A model generated the notes under the pieces. The model was not told the DNA's origin, made no database searches, and was given only the letters and a program-made list of their open reading frames with translations. 64,000 nucleotides of DNA from Gemmatimonadetes bacterium 2013_60CM_65_52 (lineage in GTDB: Bacteria; Gemmatimonadota; Gemmatimonadetes; Gemmatimonadales; Gemmatimonadaceae). Positions 7,140 to 16,593 of this stretch are shown piece by piece (the first letter of the stretch is position 1; every line of letters starts with the position of its first letter). Both the position numbers and the translations under genes were made by a program. The stretch lies in NCBI GenBank assembly GCA_002215645.1, contig NGFI01000012.1, positions 62,001 to 126,000 of the forward strand, read 5' to 3'.

Positions 7140-7311
7140 AGGTTCCGCTAAGACGTCCGCCAACCGTACGGCCGGGTCCGCTTGTGCCTTCTTGCGACTT
7201 TGAGAAGCAACCTGTAGCGTGTGGGTCCCAGGACATTTGACCGCTCTGCGACGAGGTGGGGCGGCGCACGGTTTCGTGCTTCTGACCCCACCCCGCGTCA
7301 CGGAGTACCGC

Positions 7312-8994
<1,683 letters not shown>

Positions 8995-9722: not shown

Positions 9723-11192
9723 ATGTACTCTCCCGCACGACGCGCGAGCGTGGCGCTCTTGATCGTCGTTGCCGGCGCGGGGCGCAGCGACGCGCAGCTC
9801 ATTTCGCCTCGCACGGTTCCCGTCTTTCAGGACGAACAGTTTCAGCTCTATCCCTCGAGCCGCCCGGGGTTGGGTAGCGTGCGCATCGCGCTCGACGACA
9901 CCCTCGGGGACGTGTTCGTGAATCCTGCCAAGGCCGTTCGGCTCAGGGGCACGATGGCCGTGGCCGCGCCCTATGGGCATGCCATTTCCGGCGACCGCGG
10001 AGGCGGGCGCACGCTGCCCGTCACCGTGCTGTTCGGTACGGAGGACTGGGGAGGCGCCGTGTTGGGCGCCATTCAGCAAACCGACCGCGCCGGTCCCGTG
10101 TGGAACCGATCCACGAGCGAGCGCACGGCGACCAACCAATATCTCACGGCATCCATCTCCCGCCGCTTCTCCGACGGAATGTCTCTCGGCGCGAGTGCAT
10201 TTCACGCCGACCTCTCGGCCGTGGACGGCGTGGATCTGCTCTATGCCGGCAGTGACCGGATCGATCAGTCGGGAAACCTGAACGACTTCAGGGTGGGCGC
10301 GCTCAAGGAATGGCAGTCCGGGCACGCCGCGGAGCTGCTCGTCGTCCGCAGCAGCACGCGCATGCGGCATGACGTCCACTTCACCACGTGGGTCTGGGAC
10401 AGCACGGCCAGACAGTCGCGGCAACGCACTCGGCAGGACATCAATCTCGACGAGACCGACGTCACGGGCCTCCACGCGCAATACATGCTGCCGGTGGGTA
10501 GCGAGGGGTGGCGGCTCGGCTTTCTCGGCACCTTGAACTACTTCGACCATCCGAAGATTCCCAACTACGTTCTGCAGAACCTTCCGCGCGACCCCGGATC
10601 CACGAGAGCCTACAACGTCGGCCTGGGTGCATCGCGCAATGCGGGCCCGCTCACCCTCGCCGCTGACGTGGTCATGGAGCCCATCACGTCCAACACGTTT
10701 GCGGACATGACCGCCGACGTGAAGCGCGCCGACGGCACCGTGATTCCAGCCGGTGAGAAGACCGTGGAGAACCACTTCACCTTCCACAACAGCAGGGCGG
10801 CACTCGGTGTGGGGTGGCGCGCCGTCGTGGACAGCGCGGCGGGGACGTCCGTCTCCTTGAACTTCGGCCTGTCGATGTACGCCATCTCGTACGATCTGCT
10901 CCAAACCAACAACATCACCAGAACGCTGCGGGCGCAGCACGAGAACTGGGTGGAGAGCGGGCCGACGCTTGGCATCCGCTTCCACATGCGGGATGCCGAT
11001 GTGTCGTACGCCTTTCGCGCCACGTGCGGCACCGGCAACTGCGACATCGTCCAGGGGGACCGCGTATTCGTCACACCGACCGTGTCTGCGCCGGCGCCGG
11101 GCGGAATCATCGCGGCGCCGGCGTCGCCGCTCTTCCTGCAAAGCGGACGCGAGACGAGCCATCACCTGACCGTATCGGTTCCATTTCGGTAG
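9723..11192 (+). CDS. Putative outer-membrane beta-barrel protein
   Basis: The ATG at 9723 is chosen because it follows GAGG and opens a clean signal peptide (MYSPARRASVALLIVVAGAG, cleaved near SDAQ). The mature protein of about 465 residues consists of alternating amphipathic strands with many aromatic and glycine residues, and it ends in a strand-like TVSVPFR, as outer-membrane barrels often do. I do not recognise a named family. It is the first gene of an operon with a cupredoxin, a hybrid sensor kinase and a second barrel-like protein, which suggests a shared envelope process. Barrel topology is inferred by eye. Confidence 0.75.
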   Translation: MYSPARRASVALLIVVAGAGRSDAQLISPRTVPVFQDEQFQLYPSSRPGLGSVRIALDDTLGDVFVNPAKAVRLRGTMAVAAPYGHAISGDRGGGRTLPVTVLFGTEDWGGAVLGAIQQTDRAGPVWNRSTSERTATNQYLTASISRRFSDGMSLGASAFHADLSAVDGVDLLYAGSDRIDQSGNLNDFRVGALKEWQSGHAAELLVVRSSTRMRHDVHFTTWVWDSTARQSRQRTRQDINLDETDVTGLHAQYMLPVGSEGWRLGFLGTLNYFDHPKIPNYVLQNLPRDPGSTRAYNVGLGASRNAGPLTLAADVVMEPITSNTFADMTADVKRADGTVIPAGEKTVENHFTFHNSRAALGVGWRAVVDSAAGTSVSLNFGLSMYAISYDLLQTNNITRTLRAQHENWVESGPTLGIRFHMRDADVSYAFRATCGTGNCDIVQGDRVFVTPTVSAPAPGGIIAAPASPLFLQSGRETSHHLTVSVPFR

Positions 11193-11232
11193 TACGCCTT
11201 GCGGGAGAGCTCGAGCGTGGCGTACATGAATC

Positions 11233-11988
11233 ATGCGTCCGCTTCGCCTCAGGTCGGCCCCCCGCATCCGGAACCCAGGCACGCGCGTCGCCTTGCCGTT
11301 GGTTCTCGCGCTGTCTGCCGGTGCGCCGCTACTCGTCGCGGGGCACCGCTCACATCCGCCCGCCGTCGGACGAATCGAAGGGCAGGTGCTGCTCTCCACC
11401 GCACTGACCACGCGACGGCCCCGGTTCCGCATTTACACAGATCCGGGGCCAGGCGCTCGCCCGCCGGCGCACGAAGCGGACGAGATGCGAAACGTGGTGT
11501 TGTATCTCCAGCGCGCGGCCGTGCCAGACGACGCGCGGGGAGAGCGGGCCAACATCACGCAGCGTGACGAGCAGTTTGTTCCACACGTCGTGACGGTCCT
11601 GCGCGGAACCACGGTGGACTTTCCAAACGACGACGAAGTGTTCCACAACGTCTTCTCGCTCTCGAGCGCAAAGACGTTCGATCTGGGGCGATACCCCAAG
11701 GGTTCATCCCGGAGCGTGGTGTTCGACAGGAGCGGTGTGATCCAGGTGTTCTGTCACATCCACTCGGACATGAGCGCCGTGGTTCTGGTGCTCGACAATC
11801 CGTTCTTCGCGGTGCCGGCCGAGAACGGCCGATACGCTATCGAAGGCATTCCGCCGGGCGAGTACACCGTGGTTGGCTGGCACGAGCGGATCAAGCCCGT
11901 GACGCGGACCATCCGCATCGTTGCTGGCGAAACCGCGCGCCTCGACTTCAACATCCCGATTCCGCCGGCGAGCGAGGATGGACGCTGA
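11233..11988 (+). CDS. Periplasmic cupredoxin-like copper protein with carboxypeptidase-regulatory-like domain
   Basis: The 251-residue protein has an N-terminal export segment (about 19-37). A cupredoxin domain carries a complete type 1 copper ligand set: H138 (EVFHNVFS), then C174, H177 and M180 in a CxxHxxM arrangement like amicyanin. A C-terminal Ig-like segment (YAIEGIPPGEYTVVGWHE) matches carboxypeptidase-regulatory-like domains. Proteins of this layout are often labelled methylamine utilization protein, but nothing nearby supports methylamine metabolism. It probably carries electrons or senses copper in the periplasm. It overlaps the sensor kinase gene by 11 bases, implying translational coupling. 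Confidence 0.85.
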   Translation: MRPLRLRSAPRIRNPGTRVALPLVLALSAGAPLLVAGHRSHPPAVGRIEGQVLLSTALTTRRPRFRIYTDPGPGARPPAHEADEMRNVVLYLQRAAVPDDARGERANITQRDEQFVPHVVTVLRGTTVDFPNDDEVFHNVFSLSSAKTFDLGRYPKGSSRSVVFDRSGVIQVFCHIHSDMSAVVLVLDNPFFAVPAENGRYAIEGIPPGEYTVVGWHERIKPVTRTIRIVAGETARLDFNIPIPPASEDGR

Positions 11989-14371
11989 CGAGCCAGTGAC
12001 TCCCGTCGACGCCGGCGGCATTCGCCGGATGGTTGCACGATCGAGCCTGCAAGTGCGCCTGGCTGCGCTCAGCGCTCTGCTCGCGGCGATGGTCATGATC
12101 GTCACGTTTTCGGTGCTCAGCGTTCAGGTGCGTCAGAACACCCAGCAGCTGTTCGCGCGGGAGCTGATACACAACGGTCGGACGCTGGTGGCGCTCCAGC
12201 ATGAGAGTCGCCGCCAACTCGTGCTCACCGCATCGCTCATTGCGGAAAGCCCCACGCTGCACTCCGCGATCTCGACCTATCGCTCCGAGCAGCTTTCGGG
12301 CAGCGCCACCGGCGACATTCTGACGAATACCGTGCAGAACGAGGTGCGGCGGCTGGGCGCCAACCTTCCCGGCGGAACCCTGCTGGTCACCGACGAGCGA
12401 GGGCGGATTCTCGCGGGGCGCGTGCGGGGCCTTTCAACAACCATGCGCGGGACCGAGCTCGCGAGCCTCCCTGCCGTGCGTAACGCGCTGGACGCGAGCC
12501 TCGTCACCAACGCCGACGAGCCATACCTCGATGGTCTCGAGGTGGACGGCCACTACTTTGGCGTGGGAGTGGCACCTCTCATCGTGGACGGGTTCACGAT
12601 CGGCACGATCGTCGTCGGCGAGCCGGTGGATTCGTCCCTTGTCACCACACTGAAGCGGGACTTCGACGGAGAGATCGTCGTCTCGGCGGGCGAGCGAATC
12701 ATCAGTGCAACGCTGCCAGACAGCATCGCGAGCATTGCCGCGCGTGAGCCTGGCAACGCAGAACGTGCGCTTGCGCTTGGGCCGGAGGAGTATCTCGCGG
12801 CCATCGTCCCGATCGGGAAGACACAGCGTGGCACTCCGCTGCGCATCACGCTGCTGCAACCGTTGACTCCTACGGTGAAGTTGCTGCGCGATGCGCTGTT
12901 GCGCGATTTTCTCATCTACGGCCTGGCCGCCGTCATCCTCGCCGGACTCGGCGCCGCGGCGCTGACGCGCTCCGTTCTGCGTCCGTTGCGAGCGTTCATT
13001 CAGTTCATGGGGCGCGGCGCGGAACGCGAGCGTCTGGACGAATCGTTCGACGCGACCGGTGCCGCGCGCGAGATCCGCGCGCTCAACGAGTCCTTCAACC
13101 AGCTCATGGCTGCGCTCAGCGGAAAACGCGTCGAGCTGGAGCGCCGCGGTTCAGAGCTTGCCGCGGCCACGGAAGTGCTGACCGACGAGGTGCGGGAGCG
13201 CGAGCGCGTCGAGCGCGCGCTCCGTGATAGCGAGGCGCAACTGCGTCAGTCGCAGAAGTTGGAGGCGATTGGAACGCTGGCGGGCGGTATCGCGCACGAC
13301 TTCAACAACATGCTGACGGTCATCTCCGGCTTCACGCAGCTTGCGATGAGCAGCCTGGGTCAAGAGCATCCCGTGACGGCCGACCTGAAGCAGGTGAGCG
13401 ATGCCGCGCGAAGTGCGGCGACACTCACGCATCAACTGCTTGCGTTCAGCCGGAAGCAAGTGATGCAACCGAGGGTGCTCGATCTCGAGATGATCGTGAG
13501 CAACATGGAAGGGATGCTGCGGCGTCTCATCGGCTCGCGAATCACCCTGGAGGTATCTCACGACGGGGCGCCGGCCCGGGTCAAGGCCGACCCCGGCCAG
13601 CTCGAACAGGTTCTTCTCAACCTGACGGTGAATGCGCGCGATGCCATGCCCGATGGGGGCGAGTTGCATATCGTCACGGGGCATCGATCAGCTGCCAGCG
13701 GCGCAAATCAAGTCATGCTCCAGGTGCGCGACACGGGAATCGGGATGTCGGAGGAAGTGCGGGACCGGATCTTCGAGCCCTTCTTCACCACGAAAGAAGT
13801 TGGGAAGGGTACGGGCCTTGGTCTGGCGACGGTCTACGGAATCGTGGCGCAGTCCGGTGGGTCCATCGAGGTGGACAGCGCGCCAGGACGCGGCACGACG
13901 TTCACCGTGGCGCTGCCTCCGATCGCGGAAAGCGTAACACACACTCCGGTCGACTCCATGGCGGCGGTGCTTCCGCGCGGCGCGGAGTCGATCCTGATTG
14001 TGGACGACGAGGAGGCAGTACTCGACCTCGCGCGCCGAACGCTCGAGAGCTGCGGGTATTCCGTTCGCGTCGCCCGCAATGGGGTCGAAGCCCTTACCAT
14101 GGCCCGTGGTCCGGAGCGGATCGACGCCATCGTGACGGATGTCATCATGCCGAATCTCAGCGGCCCGCAAATCGTGGAGCGGTGCCTGGTGAGACATCCT
14201 GAGGCGCGCGTCGTCTACATCACCGGATACTTCGATGATGAGATCGTCCGCCTCGAGGTCGACGAAGAGGTGCGCCTCGTACGGAAGCCGTTCACGCCGG
14301 CAGAGCTGGCCCGCACTGTACGCTCTGCGCTCGATTCACCAAGGACGTCCGCCACGTTCCATGGCTCATAG
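11978..14371 (+). CDS. Hybrid sensor histidine kinase with extracytoplasmic sensor and C-terminal receiver
   Basis: Domains of this 797-residue protein are: transmembrane helix (about 26-49); periplasmic single-Cache-like sensor (about 55-305); second helix (about 311-333) running into HAMP; coiled coil; HisKA with phospho-acceptor H440 ([10 protein letters not shown]); HATPase with DTGIGM and GTGLGL boxes; and a receiver domain with acceptor D721 (TDVIMP). There is no output domain, and no response regulator gene in the operon, so the phosphate probably goes to a distant partner. The gene overlaps its upstream and downstream neighbours by 11 bases each. The start is placed by the overlap and is less sure than the domains. 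Confidence 0.93.
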
Positions 14372-15473
14372 CGTCATCGCGCGGCGCCGCGCGCTGGTGT
14401 TTGTCTTCCTGGCCCTTTCCGGCACACCACGAACGGTGTGCGCGCAGGGTGGCTTTCTGTGGCAAGGCATCGTTGACGTCGAGGCGTGGAAGACCGATTC
14501 GGCATCCAACCTCCTGGCCCGCGGCAGCGGGCACCCGAGTCTCCTGGGACGCATCGATACCTGGGCCGCGGCAGAACCGCTCCGCAACATCGTGTTCTTT
14601 GCCGAGGTCCTCGGCGAAACCGGTCCGGCGCGCATCGAGGCGGGGAGCGAGATCTACTTCAAGCGAGGTGGCGTACGATTCTCGCCATCAGACGCATTCA
14701 CGCTGGAAGGAGGCAAGATTCCTCAAGTCGTGGGGACATTTTCGTCGCGGCAATTATCGACACGCAATCCACTCATCGGAACGCCGGATGGATATGCCGC
14801 CACGTACTCGTACGGTGCACGCGTGGATGGCAGTGTCGGCGTGCTGGATTATCGCGGCGGCGTGGAGTCGCTGTCCCTCTGGCGAGAAGGGTACACTCCG
14901 CAGCCCGGGAAATCCCTGCATCCGGCAGTCGGACTTGGCGTTACGCCCATTGCCAGCGTGCGCCTCGGGGCATCCGCCATGCGCGGCCCGTATCTCAGCG
15001 ACGCCTTCTCGGATCAGCAATTGAAAGGTCAGTCGTGGCGAACCTATCGGCAAACGATCATCGCCGGCGACGCCAGAGTGAGCATCGACTACCTCGAAGT
15101 GCACGCCGAGGTCGCGCGAAGCACCTACGACGTCCCGGGGCAGTCCGCCACGAGCAATGGCTTGCAATACTACGTGGAGTCGAAGTACACCGTCATGCCG
15201 CGTCTCTACGTCGCCGCCCGCTACGAGCGCAATGACTACCCGTTCATCGGCGCCTTCGGGCCGAACTGGGTGGCGAACAACAGCATCGTGAGCGACGGAG
15301 AGGTCGGCGGCGGATTCCGGCCGGCTGCCAGCACGCTGGTGAAGTTGACCGTACGCAAGGACCACCGCGCACCGAACGCAAGGCCGTCAGCTCCGCATGA
15401 TGCGGGGTATGCCGTTGCCCTGCAGCTCTCGCAGGCGTTCGATGCGCTCGAGCTGATCACGCGCGGACCCTAG
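14361..15473 (+). CDS. Putative outer-membrane porin-like protein
   Basis: This 370-residue protein starts with a signal peptide ([20 protein letters not shown], cleavage after VCAQ). The mature part shows regular amphipathic strands and aromatic girdles (for example YYVESKYTVMPRLYVAARYERNDY), as in 14-16-strand porins. The ATG lies inside the end of the kinase gene, giving the same 11-base overlap as the preceding gene pair. That makes it a translationally coupled member of the operon and a plausible target or partner of the sensor. No specific substrate family is recognised. Confidence 0.8.
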   Translation: MAHSVIARRRALVFVFLALSGTPRTVCAQGGFLWQGIVDVEAWKTDSASNLLARGSGHPSLLGRIDTWAAAEPLRNIVFFAEVLGETGPARIEAGSEIYFKRGGVRFSPSDAFTLEGGKIPQVVGTFSSRQLSTRNPLIGTPDGYAATYSYGARVDGSVGVLDYRGGVESLSLWREGYTPQPGKSLHPAVGLGVTPIASVRLGASAMRGPYLSDAFSDQQLKGQSWRTYRQTIIAGDARVSIDYLEVHAEVARSTYDVPGQSATSNGLQYYVESKYTVMPRLYVAARYERNDYPFIGAFGPNWVANNSIVSDGEVGGGFRPAASTLVKLTVRKDHRAPNARPSAPHDAGYAVALQLSQAFDALELITRGP

Positions 15474-15516: not shown

Positions 15517-16593
15517 ATGCAGCTGAAACAGGCGATTTTCCGCGCCGCACGCTCGGCGGGCATGTTTTCCATCCTGCGGGACAGCCCCTGGCGTCGCCGC
15601 CGGCTGCTGATCGTGTGCTACCACGGCGTGTCGATGGACGACGAGCACGAATGGTCGCCGTCGCTCTACGTAACGCAGGACCGGTTGCGCGCGCGACTCC
15701 AGGCGCTTCGCGACGGAGGATACACGATTCTTCCCCTCGCCGATGCCACCGAGCGTCTTTACGCCGGCACGCTGCCGCCGCGAAGTGTCGCCCTCACGTT
15801 CGATGACGGCGCGGTCGACTTCGAGCGACGCGCGCTGCCCGTGCTCCGCGAATTCAACGCACCGGCGACGCTGTACCTGACCACGTATTACTGCCTGCAC
15901 CGACTGCCGGTGTTCGATACCGTGCTGTCCTACGTGCTGTGGAAGGGGCGCGACAGCGGCGCCGATCTCGCGTCCATCGTCGGATCTGCGCAACCCATGC
16001 CGGTCTCGCCGGACAGTGAACGCAACGCCACGCGGCAGCGGCTGCGCGAACATGCAGCGGCTCTCGGACTGAGTGCCGGCGAAAAGGATGTCCTCGTCGC
16101 GCGCGTTGCCGGCCGTCTCGGCGTGAACTACGACGCCATCAAGGCACGGGGAACGCTGCAGATCATGGCGCCCGACACCGTTCGTGGGCTGCCGGGCGAC
16201 CTGGTAGACGTACAGCTCCACACACACCGCCACCGGACACCCATCGATCACGACCAATTCGTGCGAGAGATCCGGGACAACGACGCGGTCATCCGCGAGC
16301 TCCGCATCGGAGCGCCCGCTCCGACGCACTTTTGCTATCCCAGCGGGGACTACCACGGTGAGTTCTTCGATTGGCTGCATGAGTGCCAGGTGCAGTACGC
16401 AACGACGTGCGTGCCCGATCTCGTATCGAGGGACGCGTACCCGCTGTTGCTGCCGCGCCTCGTGGATACGATGGAGCAGTCGGCACTGACGTTCGAGGCG
16501 TGGGCGAGCGGCTTCGCGGCGTTGCTCCCAAAACGGCGAGCGTTCCGCCTGGATCCGGAACGTCTTACGGTTGGCGAGGCAGTGCGGGGATAG
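15517..16593 (+). CDS. Polysaccharide deacetylase family (NodB-like) protein
   Basis: The 358-residue protein carries the NodB hallmark TFDDG at 94-98, with the catalytic and metal-binding aspartates D96 and D97. The metal-binding histidine motif is HTHRHRT near residue 231. CYHGVSMDDE near the N-terminus and FCYPSGDYH complete the fold. Such enzymes remove N- or O-acetyl groups from chitooligosaccharides, peptidoglycan or exopolysaccharide. No clear signal peptide is present. The gene follows the porin by 43 bases on the same strand and may belong to that operon. Confidence 0.9.
   Translation: MQLKQAIFRAARSAGMFSILRDSPWRRRRLLIVCYHGVSMDDEHEWSPSLYVTQDRLRARLQALRDGGYTILPLADATERLYAGTLPPRSVALTFDDGAVDFERRALPVLREFNAPATLYLTTYYCLHRLPVFDTVLSYVLWKGRDSGADLASIVGSAQPMPVSPDSERNATRQRLREHAAALGLSAGEKDVLVARVAGRLGVNYDAIKARGTLQIMAPDTVRGLPGDLVDVQLHTHRHRTPIDHDQFVREIRDNDAVIRELRIGAPAPTHFCYPSGDYHGEFFDWLHECQVQYATTCVPDLVSRDAYPLLLPRLVDTMEQSALTFEAWASGFAALLPKRRAFRLDPERLTVGEAVRG

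Follow-up and report, generated by a model that had tools for sequence, protein, structure and literature searches.

Genes and predicted proteins at the locus

The locus lies in a 64,000-nucleotide stretch of the Gemmatimonadetes bacterium 2013_60CM_65_52 genome (contig NGFI01000012.1, positions 62,001–126,000; hereafter the window). The four same-strand open reading frames that an initial annotation had described at 9723–15473 are present there and encode a putative barrel protein, a cupredoxin, a hybrid sensor kinase and a porin (Table 1). The kinase ATG (11978) precedes the cupredoxin TGA (11986–11988), and the porin ATG (14361) precedes the kinase TAG (14369–14371), giving two overlaps of 11 bases each. 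These overlaps had been taken to imply strict coupling. Both are real, and the genes of cupredoxin-sensor pairs in relatives also usually overlap by a few bases; the number 11 itself is not kept. In most relatives the cupredoxin and sensor genes either share ∼4 to 40 bases or stand up to ∼60 bases apart, with single lengths loosely defined since gene starts are approximate in these G+C-rich genomes, and the exact 11-base overlap was discarded as a signature. Upstream, at 7219–8994, the window encodes what appears by eye to be a secreted subtilisin-like (S8) protease-like protein with repeated PKD-like domains. The polysaccharide deacetylase gene that follows the porin gene (15517–16593) was rejected as a member of the unit, as its downstream place is kept only in the nearest relatives (L033 and L034).

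Table 1. Features of the locus, numbered from the first base of the window
Feature	Position	Strand	Length (aa)	Description
Putative first barrel gene	9723-11192	+	489	ORF; upstream neighbour, outside the conserved unit
Cupredoxin gene	11233-11988	+	251	ORF; N-terminal signal sequence (by eye); C-terminal carboxypeptidase-regulatory-like domain; proposed periplasmic reporter
His138 codon	11644-11646	+		First type 1 copper ligand; His in 70/70 aligned relatives
Cys174-Met180 codons (C-H-I-H-S-D-M)	11752-11772	+		Ligands Cys174, His177 and Met180
Hybrid sensor kinase gene	11978-14371	+	797	ORF; TM, periplasmic dCache_3-like domain, TM, HAMP, HisKA, HATPase_c, receiver
Periplasmic sensor domain	12125-12910 (limits approximate)	+		Between two hydrophobic segments (by eye); dCache_3 match
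Porin gene	14361-15473	+	370	ORF; outer-membrane porin; predicted 16 strands, OmpF/OmpC-type fold; signal sequence by eye

The cupredoxin matches Cupredoxin_1 (E 8e-4), Copper-bind (0.004) and CarboxypepD_reg (4e-7) in Pfam, all under the curated cut-offs; an NCBIfam search of the window proteins added nothing specific. Its AF2 model (pLDDT 83) consists of a cupredoxin fold followed by a small beta domain, and the Greek-key cupredoxin fold is predicted with pLDDT >90 across residues ∼81–240. The nearest solved structures found with Foldseek are purple cupredoxin (1e-7) and amicyanin (2e-7), and pseudoazurin and plastocyanin are also near. The initial annotation had called this a type 1 copper protein and had let its proposal hang on the conservation of the CxxHxxM residues in relatives. 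The predicted fold and the ligand set agree with that assignment: His138, Cys174, His177 and Met180 are invariant in all 70 aligned cupredoxins, from several phyla. Proteins annotated as amicyanin (MauC) or "methylamine utilization protein" share with the window protein the cupredoxin fold and the amicyanin-like Cys-x2-His-x2-Met loop spacing. The window cupredoxin differs in its additional carboxypeptidase-regulatory-like domain and its linkage to a sensor, and no methylamine dehydrogenase genes were seen near it.

The kinase is a hybrid histidine kinase, with HATPase (1e-25), Response_reg (8e-17) and HisKA (3e-6) matches over the curated Pfam cut-offs. The match to dCache_3 (PF14827) is weak (E 0.024 for the full protein and 8e-5 for the N-terminal part) and under the 25.7-bit curated cut-off; the ortholog in L033 matches at 7e-5. 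As described earlier, the protein has a receiver and no output domain: the Pfam search detected no DNA-binding effector, and neither an effector domain nor a response regulator is encoded beside the kinase. The sensor domain contains no cysteine, as is the case for most of the related sensor regions, and the periplasmic parts of the sensors have no conserved Cys, His or Met across the 70 relatives. The cupredoxin, with its invariant ligands, therefore holds the pair's sole conserved metal or redox site.

Neither of the two remaining proteins matched anything in Pfam, even with the threshold relaxed to E 10. The AF2 model of the porin has moderate confidence (pLDDT 75.5) and contains 16 predicted strands; with Foldseek it resembles the general porins OmpF/OmpC (E ∼1e-11, TM 0.57–0.62), in line with the earlier description of the fourth protein as barrel-like. 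The putative first barrel likewise gave no NCBIfam match and no profile similarity to the other barrels.

A three-gene unit in Gemmatimonadota

A scan of a genome collection found seven relatives of the locus (L033–L039), all of which have the cupredoxin, kinase and porin genes in this order and lack the first barrel. At thresholds of E 1e-62 or better for the cupredoxin, 1e-40 for the sensor N-terminus and 1e-52 for the porin, the three proteins share one distribution across 298 Gemmatimonadota genomes: all three occur in nine of them, and none in any other. The three genes are adjacent and in order in the fetched regions of all nine, which belong to two families and at least seven genera. 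Two independent nine-genome sets would coincide with a chance of ∼10^-16.7, although related genomes are not independent draws. Three further genomes from the genus of the window have none of the three genes at these thresholds. A tenth genome (G201, locus L070) combines a cupredoxin and a dCache-like sensor carrying a class III nucleotide cyclase with a related porin.

The conserved unit is thus of three genes, not four, and their distribution indicates that the cupredoxin, the dCache-HAMP sensor and the porin are inherited together in this lineage. The trio is also present in Acidobacteriota, where the porin again adjoins the cupredoxin-sensor pair. The initial annotation had joined two flanking barrels, the cupredoxin and the kinase into one coupled sensing unit whose genes should be linked in relatives. 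Conserved order strongly supports this for the cupredoxin, the kinase and the downstream porin; the upstream barrel is unlinked and does not belong. Relatives of the latter occur in 18 of 99 family genomes, and it lies beside a cupredoxin in this genome alone. It was rejected as an operon member, being absent from all relatives of the unit while its own relatives sit elsewhere.

One input pair with six outputs

In many phyla, a related cupredoxin gene abuts the gene of a dCache_3-HAMP sensor whose output differs. Six outputs were found: histidine kinase (31 of 70 loci), Ser/Thr kinase (STPK, 23), GGDEF-EAL (8), HD-GYP (4), class III cyclase (3), and chemoreceptor (MCP, 1), counts that reflect sampling rather than natural frequency. 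In Gemmatimonadaceae the cupredoxin directly precedes a dCache_3-HAMP-Ser/Thr kinase, a version common in the family. Acidobacteriota have sensors with a histidine kinase, HD-GYP, GGDEF-EAL, STPK or class III cyclase after the cupredoxin, and a deltaproteobacterium has the MCP. Among Pseudomonadota, sampled as plasmid records only, Burkholderiales and sphingomonad plasmids pair the cupredoxin with GGDEF-EAL, and genes for DUF3034 and a truncated haemoglobin lie nearby in three of the four examined. The sensor input between the cupredoxin and the output has a steady length, roughly 340–470 residues in most. dCache_3 (at E 0.01) was detected in 53 of 71 sensor regions, and HAMP likewise in 53 of 71. 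Conversely, 59 family genomes gave 17 dCache_3 matches that exceed the curated cut-off, and 15 of these are located within 1.5 kb of a cupredoxin; the two exceptions (L133 and L134) have no cupredoxin adjoining.

The barrels of these versions are not one family. By hhalign, the window porin matches the acidobacterial upstream barrel (96%, E 4e-9); profile comparison found it unlike the barrels of the STPK version, DUF3034 and the putative first barrel. Its family accompanies the HK-REC, HD-GYP and cyclase versions, lies upstream instead of downstream in one acidobacterial histidine kinase group, and is missing from the STPK, GGDEF-EAL and MCP versions.

Several individual loci deserve mention. 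The genome of the window contains a second set (L054:5059–9205, contig C8), with a cupredoxin, a dCache_3-HAMP-Ser/Thr protein kinase and a putative barrel on the opposite strand. The DUF3034 and haemoglobin neighbours belong to Caballeronia and Novosphingobium plasmids (L049, L050, L053), where the haemoglobin is of group 1 and hints at oxygen, NO or redox. About ten acidobacterial loci besides L093 and L100 (L092–L104) combine, like these two, a plain histidine kinase with an upstream porin-like barrel; the next gene in L093 and L100 encodes a response regulator resembling sigma-54 activators. Sigma-54-type response-regulator genes also accompany related cupredoxins in L107, L110, L112 and L114. 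At L109, L110, L112 and L121, related cupredoxins adjoin putative outer-membrane proteins with a single CxxCH haem motif (IPAFARKYxTSCxTCH) at the start and a barrel-like end, possibly an electron-transfer relative of the unit. A gene for a MauG/CCP-type dihaem protein lies directly upstream of the cupredoxin that goes with the chemoreceptor (L045:5761–6873). In L043 (3573–5464) and L091 the cupredoxin adjoins a porin-like gene, with no room for a sensor between them or none detected. An apparent cupredoxin/HD-GYP fusion in an acidobacterial assembly (L046:7450–7480) was left out because the cupredoxin frame is interrupted there, probably by a gap in the assembly or the sequencing.

Placing the six outputs on the cupredoxin tree takes no fewer than seven changes, against a theoretical minimum of five, and placing them on the sensor-input tree takes five; both trees were built by a "quick" method and many of their forks are weakly supported. 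With so few changes, each output is mostly a single lineage, and the trees indicate that output exchange happened a handful of times and not constantly. Pairwise distances of the cupredoxin and the sensor input are correlated (Mantel r 0.68; the highest of 2000 shuffles gave 0.11). The correlation is 0.70 within output classes and 0.15 between them, so the overall value may reflect shared ancestry. Judged from these distances, the cupredoxin and the sensor have clearly been inherited jointly within output classes, and it is plausible that all classes descend from one ancestral cupredoxin-sensor pair.

Possible function of the unit

We favor, at a probability of roughly 0.55, a three-protein transmembrane sensing system in which the cupredoxin would act as a periplasmic redox or copper reporter for the sensor, together with an outer-membrane partner. 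The strongest argument for the cupredoxin as part of the input is the exchange of outputs: the input pair is kept while the output varies across phyla, and this points to a redox or copper signal passing from the copper protein to the sensor. The cupredoxin is also better read as an input than as a regulated target, because MCP, HD-GYP and STPK outputs cannot directly switch on a neighboring gene. The copper site would be the redox- or copper-responsive element, changing state with periplasmic redox conditions, copper supply, or electrons received from a partner. One of these states may bind or release the dCache domain and thereby switch the output. In the window, the kinase would autophosphorylate and hand the phosphate on, first to the receiver it carries and from there to an unlinked partner protein, given that no effector domain or response regulator is encoded next to it. 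The porin might admit a small redox-active molecule or a copper species, or dock the cupredoxin at the outer membrane. Uptake of copper or a redox-active compound through the barrels, as first suggested, is possible; the porin model predicts passage of small solutes at most.

Adjacent genes for a periplasmic protein and a kinase are not always functionally connected (PMC11113362). The two loci with a cupredoxin and a porin and no detected sensor speak against the reporter reading, since these two proteins may serve a separate function. So do the sensors in which dCache_3 went undetected, the output classes that lack this porin family and the weak distance correlation between output classes. 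Cupredoxins usually carry electrons. The cupredoxin and the porin could form an effector pair for cell-surface electron transfer or copper handling, which the sensor monitors or adjusts without touching the cupredoxin. The CxxCH-bearing barrel-like proteins and separate two-component genes beside the cupredoxins of L109, L110 and L112, as well as the dihaem protein of L045, fit such a role. However, it leaves unexplained why the cupredoxin goes with dCache_3 sensors whose MCP, HD-GYP, cyclase and STPK outputs cannot directly regulate the operon, and several output classes have kept the cupredoxin without the porin family. We regard this explanation as rather unlikely, though the most serious of the alternatives.

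A copper protein adjoining a kinase is also what a classical copper two-component system would look like, with the dCache domain itself binding copper and the cupredoxin serving in storage or buffering under its control. CusS provides an example of direct periplasmic copper sensing (PMC10100754), and CusS/CusR-type systems combine a membrane kinase with copper, as does the window. In those systems, however, the sensor itself binds copper and controls efflux genes, and neither property was found here. The absence of conserved Cys, His or Met in the periplasmic part of the sensors weighs against direct binding, and a CusS-domain match, itself weak, was obtained for just one of 71 sensors. No copper pump, linked efflux or oxidase gene, or OmpR-type regulator was recognised among the neighbors identified, read or scanned, in a scan not aimed at copper genes. 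We regard a classical system as improbable. Several cupredoxin-fold domains have lost copper and Cache domains usually bind small organic molecules, but the invariance of the four copper ligands across phyla makes it very improbable that the cupredoxin is a ligand-binding domain in fold only, with copper structural or absent and an organic ligand as the signal.

The reporter reading has parallels in known systems. In HmsCDE of Yersinia and YfiBNR of Pseudomonas aeruginosa, a membrane enzyme is under the control of a periplasmic regulator, which an outer-membrane protein counteracts; HmsC controls its membrane partner HmsD, and periplasmic redox state governs their interaction (PMC5550408, PMC4887326). 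These systems share with the window a periplasmic regulator, an inner-membrane receptor with a periplasmic sensor, and an outer-membrane protein. Their regulator is a disulfide protein, their outer-membrane component a lipoprotein and their output a diguanylate cyclase, whereas the window has a copper protein, a predicted porin, and a histidine kinase with a receiver; none of the window proteins matched YfiR or OmpA in Pfam. They are the best working analogy, probably similar in operation but unrelated, and do not imply membership. In NspS-MbaA, LuxP-LuxQ and TorT-TorS, a periplasmic protein encoded next to a membrane receptor reports the signal, and the outputs of the receptors vary. The partners there are periplasmic binding proteins with an organic ligand rather than cupredoxins. 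PrrC/SenC, a periplasmic SCO copper protein, has been implicated in redox signaling to the PrrB/RegB kinase. SCO is a copper chaperone with a thioredoxin fold, and PrrB has no dCache domain; to our knowledge, no output exchange has been described for that pair.

A keyword search of the open-access literature found no published description of the cupredoxin-sensor arrangement, and the words "copper" and "plastocyanin" are both absent from the text of a 2022 census of c-di-GMP stimuli (PMC8846402). More tentatively than for the window itself, we suggest that Cache receptors in several phyla use a type 1 copper protein as an exchangeable reporter of redox state or copper, and that the conserved pair of cupredoxin and dCache_3, joined to six kinds of output, forms an undescribed sensory class. 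Most Cache receptors are orphans whose signals are unknown. If the cupredoxin were the obligatory partner of one Cache class, the signal of that class could be guessed (redox state or copper) and would be directly testable through a spectroscopically visible and mutable cofactor. A single periplasmic input would then steer two-component, Ser/Thr kinase, c-di-GMP, cyclic-nucleotide and chemotaxis responses in diverse soil bacteria.
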